64,000 nt of DNA from Membranipora membranacea (Eukaryota; Bryozoa; Gymnolaemata; Cheilostomatida; Membraniporidae): assembly GCA_914767715.1 (NCBI GenBank), contig OU612075.1:682001-746000 (forward strand), read 5' to 3'. Shown here piece after piece: positions 13,980-61,959 of this stretch (position 1 is the stretch's first letter; every line of letters begins with the position of its first letter). The notes beneath the pieces are model-generated. The model saw nothing but the letters and a program-made list of their open reading frames with translations, had not been told where the DNA came from and searched no databases. The position numbers were made by a program, and so were the translations under genes.

Positions 13980-14245
13980 ATATGTCTTTTTATTGTGTTA
14001 TTTAATGTGATAATTATATCTTTTGCAAGATGCTGTGAATCTCATGTGCTTAAAATTACATGCGTACGTTCTCCCTCCCTATCAATTACACAATATTCAG
14101 AAATTCTTTTATATCATTTTACGAGAAAGATAAGCTTTGTCATGACAGCTGATTTATCACAGCCTCAATTATTTATTAAGTCGAGTAGGAACAAAACACA
14201 GATTGTGTTGGTACTTATATATTTGCCTTTTATTTACAGTATACA

Positions 14246-19193: not shown

Positions 19194-19227
<34 letters not shown>

Positions 19228-24637: not shown

Positions 24638-24676
24638 TCATACATACATGAAAATGACATCCTTAATGTCTAGTCG

Positions 24677-25000
24677 ATATATAGTAAAGTATAGACATAT
24701 ATAGTAAAGTATAGACATATATAGTAAAGTATAGACATATATAGTAAAGTATAGACATATATAGTAAAGTATAGACATATATAGTAAAGTATAGACATAT
24801 ATAGTAAAGTATAGACATATATAGTAAAGTATAGACATATATAGTAAAGTATAGACATATATAGTAAAGTATAGACATATATAGTAAAGTATAGACATAT
24901 ATAGTAAAGTATAGACATATATAGTAAAGTATAGACATATATAGTAAAGTATAGACATATATAGTAAAGTATAGACATATATAGTAAAGTATAGACATAT
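24677..25000. repeat. 20-bp minisatellite, ~16 near-perfect copies
   Basis: ATATAGTAAAGTATAGACAT is repeated head to tail with almost no substitutions. Because 20 is not a multiple of 3 and no frame has a stop, all three minus frames stay open over the array, which yields false ORFs. Confidence 0.95.
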
Positions 25001-34731: not shown

Positions 34732-34779
34732 CTAAGATGCTCGGTGCAGTGAAACAGTTTTTCATGAGGAAGAGTAAAA
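34732..34779 (+). CDS. ROCO exon 1 (start exon)
   Basis: Encodes MLGAVKQFFMRKSK, ending in phase 1 at donor A|GTAAGT (34780). The upstream TGCTTTCAG acceptor (34723-34731) shows that a non-coding 5' exon precedes it. The next exon supplies GA to make Arg. Confidence 0.65.
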
Positions 34780-37700
34780 GTAAGTAACCACAAACTTTTT
34801 GCTAATACCAGCTTAGTATACCCCCGCTCATACCAGCTTAGTATCCCCCCGCTCATACCAGCTTAGTATCCCCCCGCTCATACCAGCTTAGTATCCCCCC
34901 CGCTCATACCAGCTTAGTATCCCCCCCGCTCATACCAGCTTAGTATCCCCCCTCCGCTCATACCAGCTTAGTATCCCCCTCCGCTCATACCAGCTTAGTA
35001 TCCCCCTCCGCTCATACCAGCTTAGTATCCCCCCGCTCATACCAGCTTAGTATCCCCCGCTCATGCCAGCTTAGTATCCCCCCGCTCATACCAGCTTAGT
35101 ATCCCCCGCTCATACCAGCTTAGTATCCCCCCTCCGCTCATACCAGCTTAGTATCCCCCCGCTCATGCCAGCTTAGTATCCCCCCGCTCATACCAGCTTA
35201 GTATCCCCCCCCGCTCATACCAGCTTAGTATCCCCCCTCCGCTCATACCAGCTTAGTATCCCCCGCCTGCTCATACCAGCTTAGTATCCCCCGCCCGCTC
35301 ATACCAGCTTAGTATCCCCCGCCCGCTCATACCAGCTTAGTATCCCCCCGCTCATACCAGCTTAGTATCCCCCCGCTCATACCAGCTTAGTATCCCACGC
35401 CCGCTCATACCAGCTTAGTATCCCCCCGCTCATACCAGCTTAGTATCCCCCCGCTCATACCAGCTTAGTATCCTCCCGCTCATACCAGCTTAGTATCCCC
35501 CCGCTCACACCAGCTGAGAATCCCCCCGCTCATACCAGCTTAGTATCCCCCTCCGCTCATACCAGCTTAGTATCCCCCCGCTCATACCAGCTTAGTATCC
35601 CACCCGCTCACACTAGCTTAGTATCCCCCCGCTTATACCAGCTTAGTATCACCCCTTGCCCCTCCCCCCCCCCCGCTCATACTAGCTTCGATCTCAGCAG
35701 AATATGAGCATCTGTTGATATACAAGCTTCATAGCGACAAAAATAATCTCTTCACTATTATGACCCCCTGTACTTTACTCAGAGGACTCTCACTAGGTTT
35801 GGGGCAATCAAAGGCAGATCTCATTTTGGAGCTAAGTAGACAGATGGAAGTTAAATTTCCATTTTGAACTCGACAAGATAAATGATGATTCCGAATCTTG
35901 AGCTTGTAAAATCAATAGGGTATGCTCCCATCTCGCAAGATTATTTAGTCATTTGCGCGCAATTATATTTTCAGTATGGAAAACAGACAGTCAAATTTTA
36001 TGTTGGTTATTTCTATACAGAAGCCAATAAATTATTATATAACCTACCAACGTCCTGGTAAGACCATCACCACAGCAATTGCTTATACCAGGAAGTGTCA
36101 GGCTGTACAGAAAAACCTCAATATAATGTTAGGAGTTTTGGTCTCATACATCATAAGATGCTAATAGCCCATAATCATATCATATCACAAGGGACAAGAT
36201 GATTATCAGTATAATCAGATAAATACCAGATTACACATTAACATGACCTTATTAGGATGACATCACTGATTATATATGATTAATATTATTATATTATAGG
36301 ATATAATGTCTGGTACAGACACAGTGGAGAGACAGAGATAGAGAGTGTATCAACATTAGGATATGGTGATATGTATATAAGACGTAGAGGTGAGGCTGGT
36401 GAGATCTCAATTACTTCCGAGCCCCTGACTATCAGTGAGATAAAGAGTAGAGTAGGATCTCACTCTATAACTCACATGTATATATACAGGAGTGAGGTAC
36501 CTGATAGTCTGAGGTCTATAGCTCCTCATCTTACACATCTCTATCTGGATAATACCAGTGGATCACTTACAGGGTGAGTACAACTAGTAGGGAATCGTTA
36601 TATTGGTATCTTTATTTTTAATTAATTGATCAGCTGTGAATGCAACAATTTGAAAATACTTGAACTTTACCTAAACTGCCACACCAATTGTGTATTCACA
36701 ATATTAAAATGTCCCGACTGGGAACAAATTGTCAAATGATCTCACCTCAACCCAGCCTGGTATCCACCATAACACGTCTTCCTGGTTTATCATTTCAACT
36801 AAGTCTTATTTTCAAATTGCCTAACTGTAAAAGAGATAACATGATATATGATATTCTTATAATCAAATATAGATAATTTAGACATAATATGTCCAAATTA
36901 TTTGATTAGTATATTATGATAGCAATGGGACATAGAAAAATCAATTACTGGCTAATTATATTTGATAGACTAAGATAGATGGAGTAACTGTGTAATATAA
37001 TGTGATATCTGATGATACATGATGAGAATTAACAGAAATGTTGTATCTTGTACTGATTGATTATCAATAATATTATTTTGTACATATTTGACAGACTATC
37101 TGAGCTTAGTCAGCTGGAGGAGCTGTATAGGATCATAGCTAGCCTAATAAAGCAGCAGTGACAAAAAATAGTTGTGTTCCAAAAAAGTCAAAATATCAAT
37201 AACTTTAAAACTTCAATTTTTACCAGCTTGACCAAAATTATTTATTCCACATTCCTATTTTTGTGCTCACCAATTGTGCATACTTAAGATATATGTAAAA
37301 TTTGGGAGGGGGGATGATGGATCAGAACTAGACTAATAAAGTACCTCTCTTGTCCAATCTCATCTAGTGTCAGTTCTGTTTGTATTAATTTATCATAAAA
37401 CATAAGGAGGTATCAATTTGGTACAATTTGACAGCAGTTTATTTTAGCTGAATTATTTGAGACAAGAAGATCAGTGAAGCCTCATCTCGGTCTGTGCTAA
37501 AATAACCACTAATTGAATTTTTAAATTGTATCCATTTTATATATGATTTAAATTGGTAAAGATATAATGCTATTTTGTTACGCGTGTTAATATTATAGGA
37601 TATAATTTAATCAGGAATCTTTCATCTTGTACGTCTTGATTGCATATAACATTATTTTGTACATATTTGACAGACTATCTGAGCTTAGTCAGCTGGAGGA

Positions 37701-40700
37701 GCTGGCTATAAAAGGTAATAACTTCTCAGTGGGTGGTCTGCCTTCTGTAATATACAGTCTTACCTCCCTCAGAGTGCTGAATCTGTCTCTCTGTAAGCTA
37801 TCATCACTAGATGATAGGTGAGTCTGGTGTGTGTATCTCATTAGATAAGAGCTTCAGATAAGTTTGAATGCTTTTTCCCTCCATGATTATCTGAAGTTGA
37901 ATCTTTGACTGACGAGGCTGTATAAGTGAATAGGTGGGTTCCAGAGGAATAGATTATCAACAATTTTAAAACTTCAAATTCTATTGGCTTCACCAAAATT
38001 ATTTCTTTCCCATTCCTATTTTTGTGATCACAAATTCCATTTTGCATTCTGGTAAAGCTAAAATTTGGGAAGATGATGGATCATAGCTAGCCTAATAAAG
38101 CAGCTGTGACGAAAAATAGTTGTGTTCCAAAAAAGTCAAAATATCAACAACTTTAAAACTTCAATTTTCACCAGCTTGACCAAAATTATTTATTCCACAT
38201 TCCTATTTTTGTGCTCACCAATTGTACATACTTAAGTTATATGTAAAATTTGGGAGGGGGGATGATGGATCAGAACTAGACTAATAAAGTAGCTCTCTTG
38301 TCCAATCTCATCTAGTGTCAATTCTGTTTGTATTAATTTATCATAAAACATAAGGAGGTATCAATTTGGTACGATTTGACAGCAGTTTATTTTAGCTGAA
38401 TTATTTGAGACAAGAAAATCAGTGTAGCCTCATCTCGGTCTGTGCTAAAATAACCACTAATTGAATTTTCAAGTTGTATCCATTTTATATATGATTTAAA
38501 TTGGTAAAGATATAATGCTATTTTGTGACACGTGTTAATATTATAGGATATAATTTAATCAGGAATCTTTCATCTTGTACGTCTTGATTGCACATAACAT
38601 TATTTTGTACATATTTGACAGACTATCTGAGCTTAGTCAGCTGGAGGAGCTGCGTCTAGACTTTAATAACTTCTCAGTGGGTGGTCTGCCTTCTGTAATA
38701 TACAGTCTTACCTCCCTCAGAGTGCTGAGTCTGTCTGGCTGTCAGCTATCATCATTAGATGACAGGTGAGTCTGGTGTGTGTATCTCATTAGATAAGAGC
38801 TTCAGATAAGTTTGAATGCTTTTTCCCTCCATGATTATCTGAAGTTGAATCTTTGACTGACGAGGCTGTATAAGTGAATAGGTGGGTTTCAGAGGAATAG
38901 ATTATCCACAATTTTAAAACTTCACATTCTATCAGCTTCACCTAATTTATTTATTCTCGATTCCTATTTTTGTCATCATAAATTTCATTTTGCATTCTGG
39001 TAAAAATAAAATTTGGGAAGATGATGGATCATAACTAGCCTAATAAAGTAGCTGTGACAGAAAATAGTTGCATTCCAGAAAAGCCAAAATCTCAACAACT
39101 TTAAAACTTCAATTTTCACCAGCTTGACCAAAATTATTGATTCCACATTCCTATTTTTGTGCTCACCAATTGTGCAACTTAAGATATATGTAAAATTTGG
39201 GAGGGGGGATGATGGATCAGAACTAGACTAATAAAGTAGCTCTCTTGTCCAATCTCATCTAGTGTCAGTTCTGTTTGTATTAATTTATCATAAAACATAA
39301 GGAGGTATCAATTTGGTACAATTTGACAGCAGTTTATTTTAGCTGAATTATTTGAGACAAGAATATCAGTGTAGCCTCATCTCGGTCTGTGCTAAAATAA
39401 CCACTAATTGAATTTTTAAATAGGCGGGTTCCAGAGGAATAGATTATCATCAATTTTATAACTTCAAATTTTATCAGCTTCAATTGTTGACTCATGAGGC
39501 TCTTATAGGACCAGTTCTGATCGTAATGATGTTCATATCAGACAGAAAGGGATACAAATTGTTCACTTCACTGTCAGCGGTTTGCAGGGGCATTCAAATT
39601 AGATTAGGAAAATTTGTTGGTCCTAAAAAAGTTGACCAATGAAGTCTCAACCTGGTCCTGTGATAGATACAACAATCAATAAAACATTATTATGATTTTA
39701 TTGAGTAAAATTAAAGTTTCAAATTTTTTAATGTAATTTGATGTTTGAAATTATAATATAAGATGTGTCAGGAAACTTGAACATTTTACATCTTGATCAT
39801 ACATAATATTACTGACAGGCTATCATGGGCGGAGTCAGTAAATTAATAGATGCATTTCTTTTACCAATTAACCAGTCATCAACATGCAAAATATACAGCG
39901 AAGTCAACAATAAAGTTTTGTATGTTGTATTGACAGGTAGAATAATGGCGGGGGGGGGGGCGGGGGGCGGGGATGGGATGGGGGAGATCGAGGATAGTCT
40001 TTGTATTTCCTTTCTCCATGTTAATTAAATCAAATGACTGAACCACAATGTTTATTAGTTTTGTTTTTATCCCCTCAATTCAAATTAAGGCTTTAAAGAC
40101 TTTGTTTTGCTAGCTCATGCGATGTTTTTTTAATATTTTTTGGTTACAAGAGGTAAGTTTAATGGCATTGTCATGCCTGCTTCGGTTTTAAATTTGACCA
40201 GCGTGGTTAAATTAGTATAGAGGAATTTCCAATTTAATTTTCATGGTCTAAGTTTAAGTGTTCGATGTGGAGAGAGCTGTTCCCTCTAGGATACAGGTGC
40301 TTGGACCCATGGTACTCAAACCGCTCTCCATACCCTTGCCCGCCAAAGATCTGGTAATTCTTTGGTTTGATGGTTTATTTTGTCACAAACATTGAATATG
40401 TTGAGAGATTTGGGTGTTTGAACTGTTGTATAGACAGGGGATAACAAAAATAAATATGAGTAAAGTCAAAGAATATTGAAGAGGCAGAGGGTATCTTTTT
40501 ACTGCATGCGAGGTGTGTTGTATTCAAGTTAGAAGTCTTCACCTTTACACCACTCCTGATTCCTATTTTTCAATAGTAAACTTTCCTATAGTTCAGTTTG
40601 TTGTGTTTGTTGACGTTATGTCCCTTGATAATCAGGTGAAATCAAAGTCCTGCAAAAATTAATGTTGACCGTTGAAGGAGCAGAATACAATTTTTGCTGG

Positions 40701-43700
40701 AGTTTTAGCTTACCGCGTTTTTCCTCATATTTTAGGATAGCCAAAGATTTGCCCTATATTATTTTAGAAATAGGTGTTTGAAGTTCTGTATTTCTATAAC
40801 GATTCAAATTAAATATAAAATATATGTTAAAATATAAATACCTCATCAAACGCCTTGAAGCTCAGCGCAGGAGGATGTGGGGAATTTTCCTTACATAAAA
40901 ATTCCAGGTGTATTGATTTAAATGTAGGATTGTTTTGGATTATTATGAAATTAAAATGCAAAGTTTTTCTTTCAAAAAATCATTTAAGGCATGACCTATG
41001 TAGTATGTGTACTAAATTCAAAGCTGGATTGTCTTTTAATAATACTTATCGTTATAAATGATATAGTGGTTATCTAATTAAATTAAATTAAATATTGGTT
41101 CAATTAAGTAGTTGAGCATAAGATGCATATATAATATCTTTGTGTTTAGATTCCATCCTAATTTCCCTGGCCATCAGCCAAAAATGTGCACTCTGCTCCA
41201 ATGATAACATAAATAATAAATTGCATATTCATGGTCTCATCTGATAATCTGAGGAAAAAACTCCTAACACAACTTAATTTTTAAAACAGGTCACTTTAGC
41301 TTTATCCTACAATTTACTTATGATGAGATTCAAGCGCATCCTGCTATGATACAAATCACCCAACTATCTTAAAAGGAATTAATATTATCAAAACTACTAA
41401 TTCTAAATTACAACATATAAAACGATCCCCACCAGTTAACATAGTTTTAACAGATTTGGCAGTCTGAGTCTGCAAAAAATTAACCAAAAATTTGCAACCT
41501 TTTGTAGTTAAACACCCCGATATCCCAACAAAGATATTGATCAAAGGTCTCATGGCGTATGAAATATATTAGTGGATAGTTTGAAGGGTAGACCATCCAG
41601 AAAAGTTTAAATGCAGAAAGAAAATATGGCCAATCATAGGTAGTTATGTCTGAAATTTTAGCATTGGGTATTTACATCCAATGTGTAAGTCTGTCAGTCC
41701 ACACTACATTATTATACAGAATAATGTTTTGTCTCTTATTGCTTTATCGACATCACCTTCATTTCATCTATTATTAATCTTGTAGGCTGGATAGTCTGAC
41801 CCGACTAGAGAAGTTATATCTCAGATTCAACAACCTCAAATCAAATCATTTTAAAAGCCAAAATCATAACTTTGAAAAATATTGGTGGATGGTATAAAGG
41901 GTATACAATTTAGAAAAGTTAAAATTCAGTTCATGCGTTAAATGCAGAAACTAAACATGGCCCATTATAGTTGGTTGTGTCTAGTCTTGTCAAGCGGCCA
42001 CGGGTTTTGGTTTTTTCACACAAAAAAAAACCAAAAAAATGACAAGGCGTGACAAGGCTAGGTTGTGTCAGCAGTTTTAACGTTTGATTTGTACATCAAA
42101 TGTGTAAGTCTGTCAGTCCCCACTTTAGTGTCATCTACATTATTGTATTTAGATTATTGGTTTGTCTCTAATTGCTTTATTGACTTCCTCTCAATTTCAT
42201 CTATTCTTATTCTGTTTTGCCAAAATGTGTCCTAAAAGAGGGTTTTATTACTGAACATTTACTTCTAACGGAGCGTTGGTGTTTATTGGACTTTTGCACC
42301 AGGCGAAGAATATGCTTTGATGCTTTATTTTTGAATAATTTCTTATGTGTAAATTTGTGAAATAGGTAATGTCTTCTACTTTTTAGGGTGGGTAAGTTTA
42401 AGAGTGATCTACCAGTCGTGACAGAAAACTTTTTAGGTGCAGATATTATGATTCTAATTGCTTTATTCTGAACTTTTTCAATTGTATCGGATGTTTTTTG
42501 AGTGCCTTCTAGGTAGATAGATGAGCAGTATTCTAGGATAGGTCTGACGAGAATTTTGTAAGTCCTTAAGGATTCCTCAACGTTCATGTATTTTCTCAGT
42601 TTTGAGAGTAGGTATACTACTTTGTTTGCTTTGGTTGCCGTTTCATTGGCATGGATGTGGAAAGATAAATCAGTATCCAGGGTAACCCCTAGTACATTGA
42701 TAGAGAGTTTTGTCTCAATTTTTGAGTTTTGAAAATTGATGTGGTAAAAGTTTTTAATTTTTCTGTTGGAAAATATGCACAATTGTGTTTTCTCAATGTT
42801 GAGTCTCAGTAAGTGGCTATGATACCAATCTGATGCTTTCTTTAGCAGAGTATTGGACTCCTCTAGTACTTCATCTATGCTTGTGGCTGTACAGTAGATT
42901 AGCGTATCATCTGCATAAGCGAATGAATTGTCAAATGTTGCTAGCAATCCATTGATGGCTAAGTTAAAGAGGATAGGACCCAGAATTGAGCCTTGAGGTA
43001 CCCCACAGGTGATTGCTTGTGAATTAGATCGTGACAACCCCACTTTCATTACTTGGGATCGGCTTTGAAGATATGATCGAAGTAGTGCTATTGCAGAACT
43101 GGAGAATTGTTTTTTATCCAGTATGTATAGAAGAAGTTTGTGATTGATTGTATCAAAAGCTTTTCGGACATCTAGGGATAAGGCTCCAATGTAACATGGA
43201 GTGGATTGGTCAAGTTTAGTTTTCCATTGTTGCAGCACAGATAGCAACATTTGCTCGGTTGAATGATTCTGACGAAATCCGAATTTTTGGTCTGAAAATA
43301 GGTTGTGTTTCTCTATGTAAGACATCATCTGATTTTTCATGTCATGTTCAAATATCTTTGACAGAAATGGAAGCGAGGATATTGGTCGATAATTTGACGG
43401 GTCACATTTTTTACCCTTTTTATGAATTGGCGTGACAAGGGCAGATTTAAAGCAGTCAGGGAAGATTGATTTATGATAGCATTCATTGGCCAGAATGGAT
43501 AGCGGGTAGGCAATTAAGTCAACTATTATTTTATAAATCATTGCTGGTATGCCACTTAGACCACCGCGCTTGTCTGAGTTGAGTGAATTTATGAGCAAAG
43601 TAATTGTTTTACTAGTGATTGGACTGAAAGAGAATTTGAAAGAATTTGTTTCTGTAGGAAAATGCGGGAAATTTGCCGGATTGAATTCAGAGCGCCCGGC

Positions 43701-46700
43701 AACGTTTATGAAGAAATCATTTAAGGCGCAGGCAATATCTTTTTCATCCGTATGTTCCACACTTTTGTATTCCAGGCACTCTATAGACGTATGGGATTTC
43801 TGTTTCTTGGTTATGGATTTTAAGCAGGAATAAAAACTTTTGTCGTTTGCTGATAATGATTTGCTAATGTAGTTTTTCTTAGCGGTACGAATTTGGTTGG
43901 TAACATAGTTTCTGAATTTCTTGTAATGTTGGACTTGGCCATCAGTTGGGGCTTTAGACGCTTTGTATACTTCCTTGTAAAATTAGTTTTTGAGTGAAAT
44001 CATGTGCAGCACATCTGAAGTGATCCATTGGTTTTTCTTGTTGCGTACTCGCATAGTTTTTTCTGGCGCGTGTTTGTCTACAATGTTTATTATAGATTGG
44101 TCAATCATTTCAGCTCGTTTATGGATTGAAAGATTGGGGTCGGCGGCTATTTGCTGAAAAGGTAACAGTGCACATTCTTTATAGAATAACAAGGGGTTTA
44201 ATTTCTTGAAACTTCTGGTTTTGATGAGTTGATGTTTTTGGCTTTAAAGGTTTTATCCTGTCAAGCATTAAAAGTGTGGCATAGTGGTCTGAGATTGATC
44301 GCTCACATGTTAAAATTTTGGAAGTTTTGACTTTTAGATCACAATTAACATAATTGTGATCGATGAGGCTTTCATTACCATGGTAACTTACAACTGATGA
44401 ACCTGTTATCACTTGATATAGGCCTGTAGAAATGAGACTCTGTTGTATAAGTTGTTTTTCTCTAGAGTTAGAGTTCCAATTTATATGTTGAAATCCCCTA
44501 ATAACACAACATTTTTTTGAATGAACTGTTTTTGATGTAAAATATCACTCAATGATGAGATAAATTTCATTTTATCAGCGTCAGGTGGAAGATAGATGGA
44601 TGCCACGATCAAGCTACCTTCATCTTGTTGAGTTTTGATGTTAATCCAAACAGAGTCACATAATTCTCGCAGTTTAGATTGAGGCTGTTGAATAGTTTTA
44701 AACTTTAAAACATTATTTATATAGAGAGCTGCCCCACCGCCACGTGTTTTTGTGGTCGATTTTCTGTCACATCTGATAATATTAAAGCCGGAGAGGTCCA
44801 CAATGAGTTTGGAATTTCAGGTTTCAACCATGTTTCCGAAATAGAAAAAATGTCAATTGAGTTTGATAAATTTAGACTTTCATAGAAATAAAATTTGTTC
44901 ATTAAAGACTTAACATTGTTGTGAAGAAGGCTGAGAGTGTTATGTCCAGAGGTCCTGGTAGCATTGGCTAGTGATGAGATGTTATCCCAGAGTCGGTTGC
45001 GGAGGTCTAGGTTGTATTCAAAGATATTTCTAGATTGCTGAGTTGAGTTAGCCATTGTTTATGTTTAGTTTTTCTGCTCGGAGTTTTAGATTTAGATGTG
45101 GAGAGTGACATTGTCACGAAGTGCTCTCTCTAGTTGATTATGATTATTAAATGTTACTTTTACTGTGCGTAGGTATTTCTTTTCAGCTGTCTGTAGTCGG
45201 TATATTGATGAGACTTCGCCAAAAATATCTTGAATCTGCTTCAAGAGTTCTTCATCTGATACGTATGTGGGAACTTCTTTCAACATTGCGATGTTTTTGT
45301 TTGGTTTTATTGGGAGGCGAGCTGTACTTCCTCCTAGCGTTTCCTTGTTCCAGTTTGTGGTCATGTGTTCTCTTATGGTGGGGTCGGACAGTTGGACGAT
45401 AAATTTGGGGTCAGTAGAGTTAAACTTATATTTGTTGATGAAATCAATCATAACCGGCTTTTCTGCAACTTGACTAACTGCCTTACGGACATCATCATGG
45501 TTGACGTTGCTGAAATCTTTGCTGTAGCTATGTATTATTATGCATTTTGCAGGTTCGAATGTCGGATCGTTTCTTTTTGTTTCCCTCGGTTTTTGTCCAG
45601 AAGAAGGTTTGTCGTGTTTGTCTTGTTTTGGTGGTGGATCTGGTTTTTGCGATTTCTGTGAATTACCGTTATTTTGCTGTGCTGATAGTTGTTATGGGGG
45701 TGGTTTATGCTGTTGGTACTGCTGTCTCAATTGTGTTTCTGGTGGCGATGCTGGTGCAGGTGGTGGAAGCCCCACGGCTGCTGCATTTCTGTAGCTGAGA
45801 GCCATATGGGTACTGGTCGGTTTTTCAGGCAACTTTTCAATCTTTTTGTTAAGAGTGGAAACCTCAGATTGCAAAGCGGTCAGTTTGGCTGACATCTCTT
45901 TTACGATTTCCAGCATGTTGACACGTGTGATACATTCTGTTGTTATGCGGTTTTCATGTAAACTTAGGGTATCCCAGTCATCCAAACTTGTAGGTGTGTG
46001 GTTTGTTTGACAGCTTTCTTCCTCTCCAGTTGCAACTGATTTCATTGGCGTGTTTGATTGATTGTTAGACGATTTCACTTCATCTGACAGGTCAATAGGT
46101 GTGCTTAATCCAGTGCCAACTTCCTTGGTGGCCATCGGATTGCTTGACGATTTCAGAATAACTGATGTGTTAATTGGCTCGTCTGGTCCAGTGGCAATTT
46201 CATTGGTAGCCTTTAGATTGCTTGATGATATCATGACATTTGACTGGCTAAGCGGTTCATTTGGTCCAGTACTAACCTCCTTGGTAGCCATTGTATTGCT
46301 TGACGCACCTGTGGAAGTTGTGGTGGTGACAGTAGAGGAGAATGTAGTATGTTTAGATGTATAGAATACCTGTGGTTCTTTAAATCCTTGTTTTTTCATA
46401 AAGTTAATAGCTCCTTATTCTGTCGTGTATCCTTGATAGAGGTTGCCACTATGTCCATCAACTTGTTTCTTTGCGGTTTCCCAGTCGTCGAAAATACCAC
46501 ATCTGCGACCTATGGCGACTGCGTAATATTTATGCTTGGGGTTTGGTTCCTGCGGCATTTTTTATCCGTATTAAGTTGCCTCAATCCTCTAAGATCAGAA
46601 GAGGTAATCAAAATACGTGGCCATTGTTTTTCGTGACCTTGACCTATACAGCAAAGTCAACAATAAGGTTTGGTATGTCGTATTGACAGGCTGAAAAATG

Positions 46701-49700
46701 GCGGGGATGGGGAAGATTGAGGATTTTCATTATATTTTCTTTCTCCATGCTAATTAATTCAAATGAATGAACCATAATGTTTATTAGTTATGTTTTTATC
46801 CCCCCTAATTAAAATTAAGGCTTTGTAGACTTTGTTTTGCTAGCTAATGAATTTTTTTAATATTTTTTGGTTATAAAAGGGTAAGTTTAATGGCATTGTC
46901 ATGCCTGCCTCCCGATTTTATTTGATCTTAAATCTGACCAGTTTAGATAAATCAATATAGAGAAGTTTTAAATTTAGTTTTCATGGTCTAAGTCTAAGTG
47001 TTCAATGTGGAGAGAGCTGTTCCCATGGTACTTGAACCGCGCTCCATACCCTTGCCCGCCGAAGATCTGGTAATTCTTCGGTTTGTTGGTTTCTTTTGTC
47101 ATGCTGAGAAAATTGGGTCTTTATACTGTTGCATGGGCGAGGGATAACAAAGAGTAATATAAAAAAAATATGAGGAATGTAAAAGTGTATCGAAGAACCA
47201 GAAGGGGATCTGTTCACTGCATGTGAGGTGTGAGGTATTCTCAATTGAATTCGGACGCCACAGATCACAAGTCCACACCATTAACATGTAGACCACTCCT
47301 GACTCCTATTTTCAATAGTGAACTTTCCTGTGGTTCAGTTTGTCGTGTTTGTCGACGTCCCTTGATAATCAGATGAGACCAAAGTCCTGCAAAAATTTAT
47401 GTGGACCATATTGGGAGCAGAATATAAACATTCCTTTATTTTAGCTTACAGCATTTTTCTCATATTTTTGATTCACCAAAGATTTGCCCTATATTTAGTA
47501 AGAAATAGGTGTTTGAAGTTATGTAGTTCTATGACAATTCAAATATATCGAAATATATGGTTAAATATAAATACCTCATCGAATACAATGAAATACAGTG
47601 TAGGAAGGAGTCAGGGAATAAGCAGACAATTTCGCCAACAGAATAATTCCAGGTGTATTATTTTATTGATTTAAATGGAGGATTGTTTTGAATTACTAAA
47701 ATTATAAATGCATTAATATAAGTTGAAAAAAGTTTCTTGAAGAAGTCATTTAGACTGACCTTCTTAGTTTGTGTACTAAATTCTAAGCTGGATCGTTTTT
47801 ATCTGTTTATCTTGATATTATTTACCATAATATATTATATAGATAGTATCAAATTAAACGTGTAAATTCTGGTTCATTTAAGTAGTTTGAGCATAAGATG
47901 CATATAAATATAAATATAACTAAATTCCTTAAAATTGCATGGTGATAAGATTTCAGATCAATCACAACACTAACTGTGGACTTAGATTCAAATATACGTT
48001 TTCCAAATAACAAGTGATCAAAATATAAAAGGAGAATATACTTTTTCCAAATGTAAGTGACCTGCTCTAATGATCACTCTCATAATAAAGTGCATCATCA
48101 TCCGTTCAATAATGAGGGAAAGCTATAATGGGTGAAAACTCCTAAGATCAGACAACCGCGATCCACTGATATTTATATCAATATTCAAATCGGGTCAATT
48201 CAACCATTTACTCATGATGAAGTACAGGTGCAGCTTTTGTATTTAACCATCCCAGTAATCCCAACAAACATATTGTAATCTTACTTCCAGGAAGGATAAT
48301 GTATATTTTAATCCAAAACCGCAGTACGCGTGGTGTTTTATCTGAAATAGTTATTTTTAGGATTTTAGTTTTAAAACAAAAAAGTGATGAAACAGGACTT
48401 AACATTGTTAGCTGCTTGCTAAATATTTAAGACGCTTATTATTCTACTTACATTAACACTTACTTTTATGTATTGACTGCGTGTAGGGATTGTCATAATT
48501 AGGTAACAAATTGGGAATTTTGAGTGTATAACCTAAAATCTGTCTGTTGTCGCACATACATTATTGTGATAACCCTCAATTTCAAAGCCAAATAAGTCAT
48601 AACATATATAAAAAATACTGGTGGATAGTTAGAAGGGTATAAAACTCAGAAATTTTAAAATTCAATTCATATGCTAAATGCAGAAAGAAAATATGGCAGT
48701 TGTGTCTGCAATTTTAACACCGAGTTTTAACATCAAATGTGTCAGTCTGTCACTCCCCATTTTAGTGTCACCTACATTATTGTATACAGATTATTGGTTT
48801 ATCTCTAATTGCTTTATTGACTTCCTCTCAATTTCATCTATTCTTATCCTTATAGCCTGGATAGTCTGACCCGACTAGAGAAGTTACATCTCAGCTGCAA
48901 CGACTTCTTAAATGATATAGTCGTTATCGAATTAAATTAATTAAATTAATTAAATTATGGTTCAATTAAGTAGTTGAGCATAAGATGCATATATAACATC
49001 TTTGAGTTTAGATTCTATCCTAATTTCCCTGGCCATCAGCCAAAAATGTGCACTCTGCTCCAATGATAACATAAATAATAAATTGCATATTCATGGTCTC
49101 ATCTGTTAATCTGAGGAAAAAACTCCTAACACAACCCTATTCAACTTAATTTTTAAGACAGGTCACTTTAGCTTTATCCTACAATTTACTTATGATGAAA
49201 TTCAAGCGCATCCTGCTATGATACAAATCACCCAACTATCTTTAAAGGAATTTAATATTATCAAAACTTCTAATTCTAAATTACAACATATAAAACGATC
49301 CCAACCAGTTAACATAGTTTTAAAAGATTTGGCAGTCTGTGTCTGCAAAAAAGTAACCAAAAATTTGCAACCTTTTGTAGTTAAACACCCCGATATCCTA
49401 ACAAAGATATTGATCAAAGATCTCATGGCGTATGAAATATATTAGGGGATAGTTTGAAGGGTAGACCATCCAGAAAAGTTTAAATGAAGAAAGAAAATAT
49501 GGCCAATCATAGGTAGTTATGACTGAAATTTTAGCATTGGGTATTTACATCCAATGTGTAAGTCTGTCAGTCCACACTTTAGTTTCACCTATGTTATTAT
49601 ACAGATTATTGGTTTATCTCTAATTGCTTCATTGCCATCACCTTCATTTCATCTATTCTTATTCTTATAGCCTGGATAGTCTGACCCGACTAAAGAAGTT

Positions 49701-52405
49701 ACATCTCGGCTCCAACAAATTCAAATCCCTGCCTGCTGTTGTGACCAGACTGAAGTCTCTCACACATCTGGATATGGCTTTCATAAGATCTCTAGAGGAG
49801 CTTCATCCAGCAGTGATAGACTTACCAAACCTGATAGAGCTGGACTGTCGTTCATGTCATAATCTCAAATCTCCTCCATCTGCAGTCTGTGAGCAAGGAT
49901 TACCTGCAATCAGGAAATACTACACAGATCTAGCTGAGAAATCTGGTGTCAAGCGACCGATCATTTCTGCAGCAGTCATCGGGAACAGAATGGCAGGAAA
50001 AACTAGTCTGATAAGAACTCTGAAGAGTCGGACACGAGAGCTCACACATAGAGATGAGTCTGCTGAGGACGATGAGACTACAAGAGTGTTTGAAGTCAAT
50101 GAGGTGTCCATGGATGAGAATATGCTGAGAATGTTTGACTTGGGAGGTGATAAAGTTTATCACCTCTCATATCACCTCACCATAAGGCCCAGTTATATCC
50201 CTATTGTTGTAGTGAATATGGAACAGTTTGACCAGCTAGTCAGGTCCAAGAACATTGAAGAGGCCACTAAACAGCTTTGCACAGATTTTCTCTCCCACCT
50301 GTACATCTCCTGCCCGAGGTTGGGACCCCCGTTCCTTGTTCTCACACACAGAGACAAACTAACAATAGAAGACTTTAATCTACGGAAATCTGAGCTCCTG
50401 GAGTCTGTAGAGAAGCTACGTTCAAGGATGCTTGAAGAGGAGAAGACACTAGCACAAGGAAGAAAGAACTTGATCTCGGAGATTGAGTGTTTTTCTAATA
50501 AGAGGAATACAATATTCAGCGCTATGCATACATATGTGGTGAGCAATGACTTGAATGACCTTAATAGCATTTATGCTCTACTCAAAGCATTGTCTGAGAA
50601 GTGCCTGGATCATAGCGTGAAGATTCCTTTCATATGGGAGAAAATAGCCGGTTTTATTGAGAATCAGGCCGAAATGCCCTTTATATATGTTTCTGACATT
50701 CTGGCCAAATTTCCAGCTGAAAAACATGTTGAGATCGTCATTAGATACATGCACAATGAGGGCAGATTAATGTGGTTTGAAAAAGAGGACATGTTGAAGG
50801 GGATCGTGTTTCACAAAACATCTGCAATCACCGAAGTGATAGCTACCCTGTTCGATCACAAAGGGGAAGAGCTGTGGGATCAACGTATTGATGAGTTTGA
50901 GCCTTTTGTGTTTGGCAATAAGATAGTTAGTGCTGAGAAGTACATCTCAATGGTCGAATGCTTCAAAAGAAGTGGAGTCCTTGATGAGTGTCTTCTTATG
51001 AGTCTCTATGACAATCAGATATTCCCAAGAGATGTGGCGATCTGTCTCCTGAAGACTTTCTACCTTATCTGTGGACCAATAAAAACATCATTAAGGCATA
51101 AGTTCATCATACCGTACCTATCATCGGATGTCATTGAGCTCCTTCCCACCACAGCTGGTCTTCTGAGAGTTAAACTGGCTATCCGGTTTATTGGTTTACC
51201 CCCTCCCTCTTATGTCTACCACTTGCTTGTCGTTGCATTCTTGAATCAGTTCACGGACCCTAGGTACAAGATACGTGCTGCAAAGAATGGAGCACTTGTT
51301 CATCATGGTCAGAAGATCACAATACTGCTTCACAATCACAACAAGCGAGAAGTTCTCCTCTACTCTGACACCCCAGTAGATCAGCTAGAATCCTGCTGGA
51401 AACAAGCTATCGATGCCTTAGAAGCGGTAATAAAGAACCTGAAGTCTGTATGGGTAGCTGCTCATCCCGTCTGTAAGTTCTTCTGTGCCCACTGTATCTA
51501 CACAGGAGAAGAGAAACCAGACTGTGACACAGATCCAGATTGGTACACACCACCATCAGACCCTGCCACAGACCCTCCACTCAGAAGTAGATTGAGGACC
51601 TTCCCAGGTGTAGAGCCTGTTGAATGTCTTAATGCCAGATCTAACGGAGGATCTCTTGTAGTCCCTTCTCCACTCAGATTTCCTAGTAAGTATTTTTACT
51701 CTTTCGGGCATATTAAGTGAGCATAACTTTGATTGAATACCTATATCTTAAATTATCTATAACAGTATTTACTACAAAGTTAGTCTTTTCTATCACTGGA
51801 ATATCAGATCCAGAGAATTTCTTGAAAACTTTAAGTTTATACTACAAGGCTTTTCTTAATACTTGCGAACATAAGTATAAACTTAATTTTCAATTTTACA
51901 GGTTTCGAGTTGACGGCTGATGAGAAGACACAAATCAAGGACTATCTGAGATCGATCCCACATCGTCAAAGTCCTCAACCTTCACAAGCAGCAATGATAA
52001 ATACTGGTCAGAATCCTACAGCACCAGCAGCCTCTAACCGTATGTACAAATCTTTTTCTCTGTATATGTATACAGTGTTATGTACTGTTATAGCTGAGAT
52101 TGTGACACAACATAGATAAACAGGCCTGTTCAAAAGTAGCTCTATCAATAAAAATAATCCTGGGAATGAGAAGGCTTGTTATCCACTTTTAAAACCACAA
52201 GAATCATCGGAATTTTGATTTTTCACTTCTAGAAGCTGCAGCCGTAGACAGAGCAATGATTGATGAGATAATGAAGGAGATGAGAGAGAAGCCAGCTCTT
52301 ATAATTCAGGACCCTCAGATAAATACTGTCGGACTCTCAGCCAATCAGGTTACACTGACTCCAGCAGTATATCTTTATGTCTTTTTATTGTGCTATTTAA
52401 TATGA
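34732..52405 (+). CDS. LRR-ROC-COR (ROCO-family) GTPase gene, possibly fused to the caspase downstream
   Basis: Exons chain in phase: 34732-34779 (ATG 34737), 36300-36573, 37674-37817, 38622-38765, 49671-51685, 51902-52039, 52233-52348, giving 958 codons. Residues ~1-106 are an unclassified head, ~107-270 LRRs, ~300-500 ROC, ~500-840 COR, then a Pro-rich linker. ROC motifs are visible: P-loop GNRMAGKTSL (~306), DLGGDKVYH (~358) and THRDK (~427). ROC is a Ras-like GTPase, COR its dimerising partner, and LRRs usually bind ligands or partners; MFHAS1 and LRRK proteins share this core. A Lys/Glu-rich helical insert follows THRDK. The final exon either reads through to TGA at 52403-52405 (976 residues) or splices at CAG|GTTACA to the caspase exon at 52634, which is also phase 0. 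The 10.9-kb intron before the ROC exon contains a LINE. Confidence 0.8.
34800..35690. repeat. C-rich minisatellite in ROCO intron 1 (~24-bp unit, ~36 copies)
   Basis: Units of GCTCATACCAGCTTAGTATC followed by a run of 4-8 C, with length variation in the C-run and occasional CTCC, CGCC or TCC. The minus strand therefore has regularly spaced G-runs. Confidence 0.95.
36300..36573 (+). CDS. ROCO exon 2
   Basis: Acceptor ATTATAG (36293-36299), donor GG|GTGAGT (36574). It encodes about 90 residues starting YNVWYRHSGETEIESVSTLG and ending in an LRR-like THLYLDNTSGSLTG. The domain before the LRRs is not recognised; it may be an LRR cap. Confidence 0.7.
37095..37125 (+). pseudogene. Truncated LRR exon remnant
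   Basis: Identical to the first 31 bp of the LRR exons at 37,674 and 38,622, after the same TTTGACAG acceptor. It is then joined directly to sequence that normally lies downstream in the intron (GGATCATAGCTAGCC). This is the footprint of a deletion between array units. Confidence 0.8.
37674..37817 (+). CDS. LRR exon, array copy 1
   Basis: 144 bp, phase 2 in and phase 2 out, so copies can be added or lost without changing frame. It encodes two leucine-rich repeats, with variable strands reading LEELAIKGNNF and LRVLNLSLCKL. Flanked by TTTGACAG and GTGAGT. Confidence 0.85.
38622..38765 (+). CDS. LRR exon, array copy 2
   Basis: 144 bp with the same phases and splice sites as copy 1. The variable strands read LEELRLDFNNF and LRVLSLSGCQL. 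The changes fall on the exposed xLxLxxN positions, while the scaffold residues are unchanged. Confidence 0.85.
39421..41055. other. ROCO intron, repeat-rich
   Basis: 39,885-40,860 is copied at 46,645-47,690 (shared AAGTCAACAATAA, ATTGACAGG and GTGGAGAGAGCTGTTCCC). A G-run sits at 39,950-39,968. No coding exon was identified. Confidence 0.6.
41056..42212. repeat. Intron block with decayed copy of the ROC-exon start
   Basis: 41,056-41,785 matches 48,909-49,670. At 41786-41842 a copy of the start of the ROC-COR exon appears after a TTGTAG acceptor (LDSLTRLEKLYLRFNNLKS), then diverges into intron-like sequence and stops. 41,865-42,212 matches 48,590-48,850. Confidence 0.75.
41982..42060. mobile_element. 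79-bp MITE with 9-bp target duplication
   Basis: The ends are inverted (TAGTCTTGTCA / TGACAAGGCTA). The element is flanked by the 9-bp direct repeat GGTTGTGTC at 41973-41981 and 42061-42069. The related intron copy at about 48,697 has a single such site and no insert. The core is a hairpin of GGTTTTTT and AAAAAACC type. A 9-bp duplication fits Mutator-like elements. Confidence 0.75.
42207..45055 (-). pseudogene. LINE ORF2: endonuclease plus reverse transcriptase, broken
   Basis: The endonuclease part (45055 to about 44270) shows LLGDFNI and SISDHYATLL, the catalytic Asp/Asn and Ser-Asp-His motifs. The reverse transcriptase (about 43980-42207) has SNYRPISSLPFLSKIFE, the AFDTINH box, GVPQGSILGPILF and the catalytic FAYADDTLIY, and ends with a PILEYCSSIY / VQNKAIRI thumb region. 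This architecture fits the CR1/Jockey group. Three frameshifts split the endonuclease region (near 44,800, 44,485 and 44,190), and an in-frame TAA lies at 43983-43985. The stop after the last sense codon appears to come from flanking intron DNA. Confidence 0.85.
42210..46640 (-). mobile_element. Degenerate non-LTR retrotransposon (LINE, CR1/Jockey-like)
   Basis: Minus-strand element with ORF1 (46558-45092) and ORF2 encoding an APE-type endonuclease and a reverse transcriptase (45055-42207). It lies inside the large ROCO intron in antisense orientation. The 3' edge falls at the very end of ORF2 and lacks a 3' UTR and tail. The flanks do not pair as a target duplication: the left flank is the end of one intron copy, and the right flank (46,645) resumes at a position matching 39,885. 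Recombination after insertion is the simplest explanation. Confidence 0.85.
45092..46558 (-). pseudogene. LINE ORF1 with an RNase H1-type N-terminal domain and RRM-like part, two stops
   Basis: One frame runs from ATG at 46558 to the stop at 45092 (489 codons), interrupted by two TAA codons (46417-46415 and one near 45,692). Residues 10-55 begin KYYAVAIGRRCGIFDDW and continue through QVDGHSGNLYQGY. This fits the RNA:DNA-hybrid-binding domain at the N-terminus of RNase H1 (Pfam PF01693 type). The middle is Ser/Thr/Pro-rich with a short coiled coil (MLEIVKEMSAKLTALQSEV). The C-terminal part has RRM-like elements such as IAMLKEVPTYVSDEELLKQI, as in other LINE ORF1 proteins. ORF1 proteins coat the RNA and act as chaperones. 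Confidence 0.7.
46641..49670. repeat. ROCO intron, second copy of the 39,885-41,842 block and more
   Basis: 46,645-47,690 copies 39,885-40,860. 48,590-48,855 copies 41,865-42,212. 48,856-48,908 is a second false start of the ROC exon (LDSLTRLEKLHLSCNDF, after a CTTATAG acceptor) that runs into non-coding sequence. 48,909-49,670 copies 41,056-41,785 and leads into the real exon. 47,700-48,590 shows no recognisable gene. Confidence 0.75.
49671..51685 (+). CDS. ROCO main exon: last LRRs, ROC GTPase and COR domain
   Basis: 2,015 bp, entered in phase 2 after TTCTTATAG and left in phase 1 at CCTA|GTAAGT. It begins with three LRRs (LDSLTRLKKLHLGSNKFKSL, then LKSLTHLDM and LPNLIELDC). ROC follows with a complete P-loop and switch, and COR continues to about LKSVWVAAHP. 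The end holds CKFFCAHC, a possible metal-binding cluster, and a Pro-rich stretch. The frame is open throughout and the motif residues are intact, so it looks functional. Confidence 0.9.
51902..52039 (+). CDS. ROCO linker exon
   Basis: Acceptor TTTTACAG (51894-51901), donor AACC|GTATGT (52040), phases 1 and 1. It encodes FELTADEKTQIKDYLRSIPH followed by a Gln/Ser/Pro/Ala-rich stretch. No known domain; probably a flexible linker. Confidence 0.75.
52233..52405 (+). CDS. ROCO last exon (or exon joined to caspase)
   Basis: Acceptor CACTTCTAG (52224-52232) restores the phase (C|AA, Gln). It encodes AVDRAMIDEIMKEMREKPAL, a short helix, and then SANQ. At CAG (52346-52348) a possible donor GTTACA follows in phase 0. 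Without splicing the frame reads on 18 more codons to TGA at 52403-52405. The unit B/C homology begins at 52376, after this possible donor, so the last read-through codons are duplicated intron DNA. That favours splicing over read-through. Confidence 0.55.
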
Positions 52406-52633
52406 TAATTATATCTTTTGCAAGATGCTGTGTATCTCATATGCTTAAAATTACATGCGGACATTCTCCCTCCCTATCAATTACACAATATTCAGAAATT
52501 CTTTTTATCAATTTACAAGACAGATAAACTTTGTGATGTCAGCTGATTTATCACAGCCTCAATTATTTATTAAGTCGAGTAGGAACAAAACACAGATTGC
52601 GTTGGTACTTATATATTTGCTTTTTATATCCAG

Positions 52634-55465
52634 TATACAATGACTGAGACACGAGGGAGAGCACTCCTAATATCTAATGAGTACAAACTGCCCAACGGCT
52701 CTTACAGGAAAGGCTCAGAACATGACTACAGAAATATGAGAGATCTTTTGGTGAAGCTTGGGTTTGTTGTTGTAGGTGGTCATCAGAACTACACAGCAAA
52801 GGTATTGATCGTGTAAATCTAACATGAGTGTAAAATATAGTTGCATTCACTTATATATTTCTTTACCTTTCTTATAGACGCAATCATTATCCGTAACTAA
52901 AAATACTCTTTCCTGTCACGTACACACATTTTTTGTGGTAATGTTGTTAACCTTGCAGGTGAAGCTTATTGATGTCACAAGTTAATTTATACTTCAGGAA
53001 ATGGTGGAGGCAATTCACAGAGAGACACAACTGGTAGATGAAACAGGAGAATCTGTCTATAAGAACATTGGAGTGTTTGTACTGATGATCACAAGTCATG
53101 GCACTGAAGGCTGTGTAGCAGGTGTGGACGGTAAACTGGTCAAGCTGTCAGACATCAGCAAGATTGTCTCTGCAAGAAATTTCCCAGCCATGCGGGGCAA
53201 ACCAAAACTCCTCGTAATACAAGCTTGTGCTGGAAGTAAGTGAAATATTAACCTATCCTTTAGTTCTTTAGGTCTCCAGGTAAAGTTTATCCGTGTTAAG
53301 TAAAGAGCAGCATCTGAAATATTTCACAATCTTGAAAGCTGTCAAACATCAAGACAAAGGTCATTGAGAGTATTGAATATATATATTAAACATGTTGTAA
53401 GTGTGTTTGTTGATGGTAATAAAATAATGTAGATCACGTTTGATCCATTTGCCTGTGTCTGGAGTTGCCCCTCTCTACTGCTCATGCCGCAGTAGATGAG
53501 GGGCAACTCCAAATGCAGGCAAATGGATCAAACTTGATCTATTAAATATGTAAAATTTACTCAATGCTGCTCTGCCATGTTGCTATATCGATCAAGTCTG
53601 AACTCGTAGTTCTAATTTGGAGTTGCTCTCCCAGGTCTGACAACTGTGCAGTCAAGTGGAAGCAACTCCATACAAATCAATGAGATGTGATTTGATACAT
53701 ATTTAGTAGGTCAATACAACTTCCACTAAAATCACCAGATTGTTATATGTATGTGTCAATCTATATGATGTATGTTTAGTACTGTGTTTTGGTATCAGTT
53801 TCTGGTGATCGTCCTTACAGGTAGCAGAGAGATGTTGTTAGATACTACAGACTCAGTTCCCTCAATCTCAGAGCTGAGTGCAGCTGCACCTGAACCTCTC
53901 CCCCGTACATCTGATCTAGTAGTGACATCATCAGCACCTAGAGAAGGAGATCTGTATCAGACAGGAAGTGATGTCATACAGCTGTTACCTGAAGTAGACA
54001 GTATCAATGAGACAATATCAGTGGCCGATCTAATAATCATGCAATCAAGTTTTGACAGTAAGTTTTATATTTGGTAGTTCCTCTAATATGTTGGCTGTAA
54101 ACGCAAATGACAATGGAGCTAAGGATCTTTGAAAGTTTGGAAACACATAAGAAAGAATCGGAGTGTTGGCCCCGACATTCACTTTATCATTATATATAGC
54201 TACCTGTCCTACATCCTCCAAATCTTAGTGATGTCATAAAATCATGAAAAGTCTAAGCCCATTCTGTTCAGGTTAACTTCATGATAAATTATTTTTTTGT
54301 AGCGTTTGTGTCTCCTAGATCACCTGAAACAGGATCGGCATTCATCAGAGCCCTCGTCGTAACGCTCTACAAGTTTGCAGGACAGTTTGATGTCGTAACT
54401 TTGGAGGAGCTAGTGAGTATTTTTACACATAACTTTAATTCGGACTAGGTGTGTGATGTTGAACGAGAGTTGAACCTTGCCACATAAAACTTGATTCTGT
54501 CCGGGTCAACAAAAGCTACGAGAACGCCATCCATACCAGATGTGAGATGTATTGACCTTACATTCCAAATCAACATTTGATCTCGACTAGATTATGCTTA
54601 TATTTGAATTGTATAGAGTTTGATGATATTGATGTCTTTTGTATAATTTTCATTTTCTACACAAAGGTAAGAGAGGCTGTCAGTAGATATGGAGTAGTGC
54701 AAACACAGGCTTACCTTGCAGCTAATCCTGGTCTGAATGCAGCTTACATAGCTCAGATGCCGAAGATGATATCTACTCTCACAGACCTGAGAAAGTTATA
54801 CCTCAGACCTGGAGTTAATATGAGAAGAGCTGGAGAACATCCACAATCTCTGACAGATCCCAGATATCCTGATGGTAATACAGATACTACTATAGAATGG
54901 TTACCAGGTGAGTAGTGTACTGCTGTCCTATCATTGAAATATTTAGGTACCGATGATAGTCAGGGTCCAGATGATTAGCTGCTTGATGTGGTTAGATATC
55001 AGACCTTATGTCAGGTAATCTAAGAAAATTTATTCAAAGTTTTCGTGGCTCATTATTTCAAGTAGAACTTTTTCAAGATCTGGATCAATTTTCTTGCATC
55101 AAGAACTAGCCTACACTTTTGACTTTTTGAGTGCAGTGATTAATTAATATTACATTTGTTATAGGTTATATGGATTAACTCACTCTAATTTTAATGAAAT
55201 GGAGCCGGACTTGAATATCATAGTTAGCTACTGTTATTGTCACATTACAGATCGTATGGCCGACGAAGACATGAATAATCCCCAGTCTAGAACTTACACT
55301 TATATCAGATGGAATATTCTGAAGAGGAGAAGAGTGCCAGCTACTCCAGCTGCTCCAGCTTCTCCTGCTACTCCGGCTGCTCCAGCTTCTCCGGTTGCTC
55401 CAGCTACACCGGCTGCTCCAACTACTCCGGCTGCCCCAGCTACACCGGCTGCTCAAGCTCCATGA
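52634..55465 (+). CDS. Caspase-like cysteine protease (C14), unit C
   Basis: Exons: 52634-52801 (ATG 52640), 52998-53235, 53821-54057, 54303-54412, 54667-54907, 55251-55465, giving 400 residues from the ATG. It has the same structure as the unit B gene: pocket Arg in YRKGSEHDYRNM, catalytic His in SHGTEG, catalytic Cys in IQACAGS, second pocket Arg in SPRSPETGSAFI. The Asp-rich linker has candidate cleavage Asp residues (LLDTTDS). Few residues differ from unit B, none at catalytic sites. The first exon follows acceptor TATCCAG and reads TAT-ACA-ATG in phase 0, so it could be either a start exon or an internal exon of the ROCO transcript. AATAAA lies at 55773. Caspases cleave after Asp in cell death and innate immunity; substrates here are unknown. 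Confidence 0.85.
53432..53541. repeat. Hairpin element in caspase intron 2 (unit C)
   Basis: Near-perfect palindrome. GATCCATTTGCCTG pairs with CAGGCAAATGGATC, and the inner TGGAGTTGCCCCTC with GAGGGGCAACTCCA. It is shared with unit B (15,048-15,150), so it predates the duplication. Confidence 0.75.
55335..55462 (+). repeat. 9-bp coding minisatellite (Pro-Ala-Thr tail), unit C
   Basis: Same PAT/PAA codon repeat as unit B but seven 9-bp units shorter; it ends in the shared PAAQAP-stop. Confidence 0.85.
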
Positions 55466-61400: not shown

Positions 61401-61561
61401 TGTAACTTCTAGCTTGATGAATGATGTGGTCAGCACACAGACCAGAGATGGATGGATTGAGATCCTCAGATCAGGAGTTGTCTGTAGTTTGTGTGAACAG
61501 AGAGATTCTGAATCATATGATGAAACGCTGTCAATCTCATGACATGTAAGAACCAAGTAAG
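55466..61561. other. Unit C spacer downstream of the caspase
   Basis: Caspase 3' UTR, then sequence collinear with 17,175-23,255. It includes a CA-rich microsatellite (57,608-57,652), the inverted repeat 58,921-58,945 / 59,013-59,037, the 10-bp hairpin at 60,797-60,821 and the exon-like block at 57,490-57,548. No gene called. Confidence 0.5.
57171..57275. mobile_element. 105-bp MITE with 8-bp target duplication (hAT-like)
   Basis: Almost a perfect palindrome: CATAGGCATCTGGAGTTACA at the left end mirrors TGTAACTCCAGATGCCTATG at the right, with 48-bp arms and a ~9-bp loop. Direct repeats AGTCAAAG flank it (57163-57170, 57276-57283). It is absent from the matching place in unit B (about 18,870), so it inserted after or around the duplication. 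An 8-bp duplication fits hAT transposase. Confidence 0.85.
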
Positions 61562-61959
61562 TGGATGGATGGATGGATGGATTTATTACTATCATAGACA
61601 AAAATTTGTCACGAAATACGTTGTTAATACTGACAAGAAAGAAAAACATGGAAAAATCAGATCTCTGTTGTATAAAAAGTTTTTTTAGAATAGTATATTA
61701 TTAAGTGTATGTATGAGATGTCTTAAAAAGCTGTCTCTACCCCATGTACCCGATATTTAACGGTGCGGTAGCGACCTGAGGGGCATTTAGTTAGAAAGTC
61801 ATTGATAAAGTGCTCTTCATCGTATATGTACCGTAGTCCAAGTGTCTTGATCCGGTTGGCCACCAGAGCATCTATATCGGGGTGCTCAATCCCTAACTTG
61901 GCGGCATCTTTAAATATTTTGCGGAAGCACTTCTTGTCGCTTGCATGGATGCTTGCATG
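61562..61959 (-). mobile_element. 3' fragment of a second LINE with (ATCC)n tail
   Basis: Extra to unit C: the flanks (AAGAACCAAGTAAG and TGATACCTAGATC) are joined in the two other copies. The left end is (GGAT)n followed by TTTATTA; on the minus strand this is a TAATAAATCCATCC tail, typical of some LINE 3' ends. On the minus strand a frame from about 61956 to TAA at 61723-61725 encodes a ~77-residue C-terminal piece containing DKKCFRKIFKDAAKLG and TLGLRYIYDEEHFINDFLTK. The 5' part is missing, as usual for truncated LINE copies. It is not the same family as the element at 42,210. Confidence 0.65.

Follow-up and report, generated by a model that had tools for sequence, protein, structure and literature searches.

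In the Parkinson's protein LRRK2, kinase and WD40 domains come after the COR domain; LRRK1 and LRRK2 carry a kinase at the place where the gene described here has a caspase. Animal caspases normally reach their sensors through CARD or Death adaptors and are activated by proximity. We analysed a stretch of 64,000 nucleotides of chromosome 11 (C11) of the bryozoan Membranipora membranacea (C11:682001-746000; hereafter the window), in which a single gene is predicted to encode leucine-rich repeats (LRRs), a ROC GTPase domain, COR-A and COR-B, a linker and a caspase. Judged from sequence, this gene is one of a genuine, conserved family of animal genes with LRR-ROC-COR-caspase layout, the members of which are very probably single-chain and likely have an immune or allorecognition role. 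We consider with good confidence that the locus is best explained, overall, as a one-gene LRR - ROC GTPase - COR-A/COR-B - linker - caspase receptor of a large M. membranacea family that works by proximity. Initiator-type caspases (CED-3, caspase-2, caspase-9) share with it the p20/p10 arrangement with SHG and QAC; they differ from it in having a prodomain where the window gene has LRR-ROC-COR, while the window caspase reads QACAG and its p10 has PR where CED-3 reads WR.

The closest described layout is bacterial. In a passage of Kaur et al. 2021 (PMC8195603), the C-terminal place of bacterial LRR-AP-GTPase-COR proteins is held by any of 24 or more domains, one of them caspase, so that the LRR-ROC-COR-caspase layout is already known in bacteria and the suggestion of an earlier, sequence-only reading of this DNA, that a ROCO-caspase fusion is undescribed, has to be given up. 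As predicted by its gene model, the window chain would follow this bacterial-type domain order as it is described in that passage. As described there, the bacterial LRR-AP-GTPase(ROC)-COR proteins resemble the bryozoan family in their C-terminal effector, several paralogs per genome and fast-evolving LRRs; the bryozoan family differs in its introns, exon-coded LRRs, own linker and animal-type caspase, a comparison in which the bacterial side is known by description only. Brown-algal LRR-ROCO genes likewise have LRR motifs on separate exons, with exon shuffling and diversifying selection, in a paper whose main text does not use the word caspase (PMC11378527), and a figure legend on sponge NLR architectures lists CASc and COR among the domains (PMC12909245). 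Searches of open-access literature, aimed mostly at other phyla, showed no animal ROCO-caspase chain among the papers listed, which is no proof of absence.

The gene model and its junction

The model built from the window sequence has 13 exons with GT-AG borders throughout and an in-phase join, giving a predicted chain of 1360 amino acids. All features below lie on the plus strand, the last being a second caspase in the window.

34737..34779, +, exon 1, first coding exon, MLGAVKQFFMRKSK, 43 nucleotides, starting at the model ATG
36300..36573, +, exon 2, cap at the N-terminus of the LRR region, entering in phase 1 and leaving in phase 2
37674..37817, +, LRR exon A, 144 nucleotides, phase 2-2
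38622..38765, +, LRR exon B, tandem duplicate of LRR exon A, 144 nucleotides, phase 2-2
49671..51685, +, large exon coding for the final LRRs, the ROC GTPase domain and both COR-A and COR-B, 2015 nucleotides
51902..52039, +, linker exon A (SFELTADEKTQIKDYLRSIP...)
52233..52348, +, linker exon B (DEIMKEMREKPALIIQDPQI...ANQ), leaving in phase 0
52349..52366, +, alternative stretch that lengthens linker exon B by 6 codons, up to a second phase-0 donor GCA|GTATAT
52634..52801, +, caspase exon 1, beginning of p20
52998..53235, +, caspase exon 2, carrying the His (SHG) and the Cys (QACAG)
53821..54057, +, caspase exon 3, coding for the p20-p10 linker, in which PEVD-S is a candidate self-cleavage site judged from resemblance only
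54303..54412, +, caspase exon 4, beginning of p10, FVSPRSPETGSAFIR
54667..54907, +, caspase exon 5, completing p10
55251..55466, +, last coding exon, with a tail rich in Pro, Thr and Ala and the stop codon
14240..17176, +, duplicate of the same caspase, 5'-truncated, without LRR-ROC-COR

The range given in the earlier reading starts at 34732; the ATG of the model lies at 34737. Exon 1 has counterparts in L015, L020, L023, L025 and L028 with 1-9 mismatches in 43 nucleotides, and exon 2 has homologs in L015, L020, L022/L023, L025 and L028. The intron of about 10.9 kb that separates the LRR exons from the ROC exon contains a non-LTR retrotransposon, because of which extra LRR exons could have gone unnoticed.

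At the junction the sequence bore out the earlier reading in full: linker exon B ends at 52348 in phase 0 (donor TCAG|GTTACA), the caspase exon starts at 52634, likewise in phase 0 (acceptor TATATCCAG|TATACAATG), the gap between them is 285 bp, and read-through beyond 52348 meets a stop at 52403-52405 after 18 codons, running into duplicated DNA that begins at 52376. Both sides are open in the window copy and look constrained against close paralogs, with the P-loop GNRMAGKTS, THRD and the caspase SHG and QACAG unbroken. The GT at 52366 likewise leaves phase 0, so the fusion is in frame with either donor. Scored with two small home-made matrices, 52366 reached 1.45 against 0.49 for 52348 in the first, where the lowest training donor had 4.1, and 2.5 against -0.7 in the second. 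The placement of the donors predicted for distant paralogs speaks for 52348 rather than 52366. Both sites are retained in four close paralogs, and conservation among close paralogs continues for about 38 nucleotides beyond 52348, a stretch that could be coding as far as 52366 or could mark the edge of a conversion tract. The gene model and its phase-conserved junction are shown here.

Linkage and splice phase across the family

We searched 339,339,785 bases in 18 contigs; since the published assembly has 339,374,674 bases in 21 scaffolds (PMC10290214), a few small pieces lie outside the searched set. The search for ROC-COR exons gave 272 candidates, of which 66 were scored, and 65 of these matched without an internal stop. 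A same-strand caspase was noticed within 6 kb downstream of 50 of the 66, the window's own pair included, at 687-1991 bp in 49 pairs and at 5414 bp in one, while within the same 6 kb none of the 66 had a caspase upstream on its own strand, nor any on the opposite strand. The caspase set comprised at least 145 matches, to which the window's own caspase, absent from it, was added by hand. Random placement yielded 0.15 pairs on average and at most 3 in 2000 trials. Linked pairs were found on the further contigs C2, C3, C5, C8, C9 and C10, which together with the above shows family-wide linkage. From the caspase side, 16 of 21 matches that were read, hand-chosen and not random, had ROC-COR upstream on the same strand. 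The paralogous ROC-COR exons range down to 26-36% identity with that of the window (tblastn), and from 95% down to 33% in a nine-row alignment; inter-locus distances of ROC-COR and caspase exon 1 correlate with r 0.66 and p 0.0001 over 16 loci.

Splice phase follows the same pattern. The acceptor before caspase exon 1 was in phase 0 in all 19 loci tested by script (L018 and L039 included), being the best-scoring AG in 16 and the second in L022, L024 and L034. Two to six in-frame codons separate it from the Met at the start of the caspase, with a Tyr two before the Met in 17/19 loci. The Met itself is present in 17/19 and replaced by Ile in L030 and by Val in L037, so these two exons cannot initiate translation there. 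A script located the motif of linker exon B in 14 of the 18 loci given to it, the window included, and did not find it in L019, L031, L036 and L038. In all 14 a phase-0 GT ends the linker exon, top-scoring in 11, tied in L032 and ranked second in L024 and in L030; for the window and for L010 the top score goes to the 52366-type site. Good donors were observed in distant members (L029 AAG|GTATGA, L033 ATG|GTAAGT, L037 CAG|GTAATT), and a Gln codon closes the linker exon (CAG|GT, like 52348) in L018, L034, L035, L037, L040 and L041. With order, strand, linker exon and splice phase conserved even in paralogs of 26-36% identity, the proposed single LRR-ROC-COR-caspase chain holds up well. Of the two weak points named for it earlier, agreement of phase by chance and a weak donor, the paralogs largely answer both, although the window's own donor is still weak, as are those of its close paralogs.

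Outside this genome, a profile search matched 82 proteins. The best relatives are isolated ROC-COR exons from short, presumably metagenomic contigs, with up to 63% identity, and two "MFHAS1 homolog" proteins of the bryozoan Watersipora subatra, P0013 and P0018. Both are LRR-ROC-COR like the window gene; P0013 is 38% identical across the whole ROC-COR exon and has a IQLTGNEVAAVDNYLSNLEP tail which, by eye, resembles linker exon A; unlike the window gene, the models of both proteins stop soon past COR. Fused Watersipora proteins would have escaped this search because it was limited to candidates of at most 1.75 times the query length; a search with the ROC-COR region of a single chain, long candidates allowed, returned three distant ROCOs only and missed P0013 too. 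The linker plus caspase had no match in a protein-database search, scans of viral contigs found no relatives, and tblastn with caspase exon 2 had no match in phages. One protein, P0001 (source jgi, 1573 amino acids), has the same LRR-ROC-COR core with another effector end, a C-terminal Death domain.

Domains, predicted fold and selection

Pfam Roc was matched in all nine aligned paralogs, at best with 1.7e-7 and in the window with 2.3e-5 and 25.0 bits, below the 27-bit cut-off, and the P-loop G-x-x-x-A-G-K-T-S and the G4 motif T-H-x-D are invariant in all nine. The AlphaFold2 model of the large exon has a predicted local distance difference test score (pLDDT) of 85; its residues 1-671 align with LRRK2 1240-1856 and it likewise matches CtRoco by fold. 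An earlier four-row model with pLDDT 46 was not used. That COR comes directly after ROC is supported by these fold matches and by hhalign to P0002 (99.5%); COR-A was weak by Pfam (17.1 bits against a cut-off of 35.3; eight of nine paralogs at E<=0.1), and COR-B had no Pfam match in the nine. Close to the COR-B end lies a Cys-x-His-Cys cluster (window 51475-51543, FFCAHCIYTGEEKPDCDTDPDW), invariant in 9/9 aligned paralogs, which possibly binds metal.

The caspase domain matched PF00656 with 2.2e-31 over 1-230 of 233, covering p20 and p10. Its SHG and QACAG align with the His-Cys dyad of CED-3, its best solved relatives are animal caspases, and the Arg residues which we take to line the S1 pocket look conserved in caspase alignments. 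The predicted LRR-ROC-COR fold and the intact catalytic residues are shown by these comparisons. Among the 14 Pfam families matched by the 1360-residue chain at E<=0.1 there was no CARD, DED or Death domain, although a very divergent one could escape; nor did the Pfam matches include an ARM or ANK region or a protein kinase, and since a caspase is what follows COR the gene falls outside the LRRK subfamily.

Ratios of non-synonymous to synonymous substitution (dN/dS) were obtained by a simple counting method (Nei-Gojobori). In 15 LRR exons from the window and six C11 stretches, the exposed positions of the LxxLxLxxN strands gave 3.66 (bootstrap 2.3-7.5) against 0.53 elsewhere, and random ten-codon sets had as many replacements in 4/20,000; the ten exposed positions were set from the LRR consensus, but after the variability profile had been viewed. 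As overall divergence among the 15 exons (mean 12%) is below that of their ungapped flanks (22%), it is the exposed positions alone, not whole exons, that stand out. Compared with four paralogs, the big exon had dN/dS 1.4-4.2 in its LRR part and 0.20-0.29 in its ROC-COR part, and the caspase had 0.23-0.32. Gene conversion among copies is likely, with L022 a mosaic, and adds uncertainty to these values. This pattern of selection is likewise shown here, and together with the LRRK2 and CtRoco fold it supports the sensor-switch-effector arrangement proposed earlier, which we still infer.

Alternatives, mechanism and neighbouring repeats

Several observations weigh against a fused, proximity-activated family. 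Sixteen of the 66 ROC-COR exons have no caspase partner among the matches listed, and five of the 21 caspase matches read (three in L018, then L032 and L039) lack ROC-COR upstream, the upstream DNA read being 20 kb for L018 and 3.4 kb for L039, while L032 shows only a remnant of ROC-COR. The distance correlation falls to r 0.34 with p 0.03 when three near copies are removed (13 loci), a modest value from a short caspase exon 1. The linker showed no purifying selection in three of four C11 paralog comparisons (dN/dS undefined, 2.7 and 1.0; 0.22 in the fourth), counted to 24 nucleotides past 52348. Both window donors score weak; the two Watersipora subatra NCBI proteins, of the same ROCO family, have no caspase; and the left copy of the window caspase, at 14240, stands without ROC-COR upstream. 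To these is added the nucleotide response of CtRoco, taken up with the mechanism below.

The left copy belongs to a segmental duplication of about 10.7 kb (13981-24635 against 52376-63315, plus strand, blocks at 89-98% identity), the right-hand block of which has its left edge in the intron, 28 bp beyond the donor. In the left copy a short-repeat tract precedes the caspase in place of ROC-COR, and tblastn with the ROC-COR exon within the window found none upstream. By itself, this arrangement might reflect a free caspase that landed beside a ROCO gene; the genome-wide pattern says otherwise, and since the same order recurs at 49 other ROC-COR exons, the left copy is most simply the truncated one.

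Possible, on a tentative view, is that the family is truly fused and the window copy splices poorly or in two ways, into a short LRR-ROC-COR form that ends in ...LLCYLI and a full caspase form. The weak window donors, and the same two sites kept in four close paralogs, would fit this; L022 does not share the short tail, though, and the window ROC-COR and caspase are open and look constrained. It is compatible with the single-chain receptor, and the confidences need not sum to one.

We consider it improbable that two separate genes duplicate as a pair, the ROCO stopping at 52403-52405 and the caspase starting at the ATG at 52640. The caspase-start Met in 17/19 loci, the left copy, the weak donors of the window group, the tandem caspases of L018 and the Watersipora proteins would all suit two genes. 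However, the caspase exon has a phase-0 acceptor, in-frame codons and a conserved Tyr ahead of a Met that two loci lack; distant paralogs carry phase-0 donors at the matching place, some of them strong; the sequence beyond 52348 diverges in L022 and in distant loci; and no AATAAA or ATTAAA occurs in window 52349-52633. A recent fusion, in which the caspase joined ROCO when the duplicated block landed 28 bp past the donor, draws on the block edge at 52376 and on the copy without ROCO, and is extremely improbable given the same order at 49 other ROC-COR exons, including those on C2, C3, C5, C8, C9 and C10.

For the single-chain receptor we infer a transcript, a ligand, GTP dependence, protease activity and cell death. 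The LRRs, coded partly by repeated 144-nucleotide exons and with fast-changing exposed residues, would bind microbial, damage or allogeneic ligands, and binding would alter the GTP cycle of ROC-COR and its oligomeric or open/closed state. Two tethered caspase domains would then be brought together, or freed; the caspase would dimerise, cut itself in the p20-p10 linker, perhaps at PEVD-S, and cleave substrates after Asp, with cell death or an inflammatory output needing no CARD or Death-domain adaptor. Bacterial CtRoco is mostly dimeric when nucleotide-free or GDP-bound; the GTP-bound form is monomeric (PMC5714945) and has its LRR swung away by about 135 degrees (PMC11052575). GTP-driven caspase dimerisation is therefore not an obvious outcome, and a tethered caspase could be switched via oligomer state or via release from the LRR. 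We tentatively place the proximity model first, with release from the LRR as the second candidate.

That an LRR sensor, an LRRK2-type GTP switch and an own caspase form animal immune or allorecognition receptors, expanded in a single bryozoan to 50 or more linked loci and with LRR surfaces under diversifying selection, seems to us somewhat more probable than its opposite. If true, this would be a one-protein counterpart to sensor-adaptor-caspase inflammasomes, parallel to the bacterial LRR-ROC-COR-caspase defence proteins, and an animal use of a bacterial conflict-system sensor-switch-caspase layout, multiplied and diversified in a colonial animal. A sensor with its own caspase behind an LRRK2-like switch would also be a simple system for the control of an attached enzyme by the nucleotide state of ROC-COR, an open question for LRRK2.

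Some further features lie in and around the array. L018 (C11:2801001-2811000) holds three tandem caspase units, with a linker exon before units 2 and 3, the active site reading QACGG in two units and QACRG in one; no ROC-COR was found for them in L016-L017, the 20 kb upstream. In L012 (C11:662001-672000) a caspase fragment of exons 3-5 only is flanked by two full array genes. Incomplete duplicates of LRR exons and of caspase exon 5 occur at window 41787-41842, 48854-48901, 37094-37125 and 6023-6139, which are signs of repeated duplication. The retrotransposon of the pre-ROC intron lies at window 42207-46414 on the minus strand (RVT_1 2.7e-32, endonuclease match weak). A minisatellite of about 25-bp units (CCCCCCGCTCATACCAGCTTAGTAT) occupies part of intron 1 (window 34801-35655), and a tandem array of 20-bp periodicity lies at window 24664-25000.

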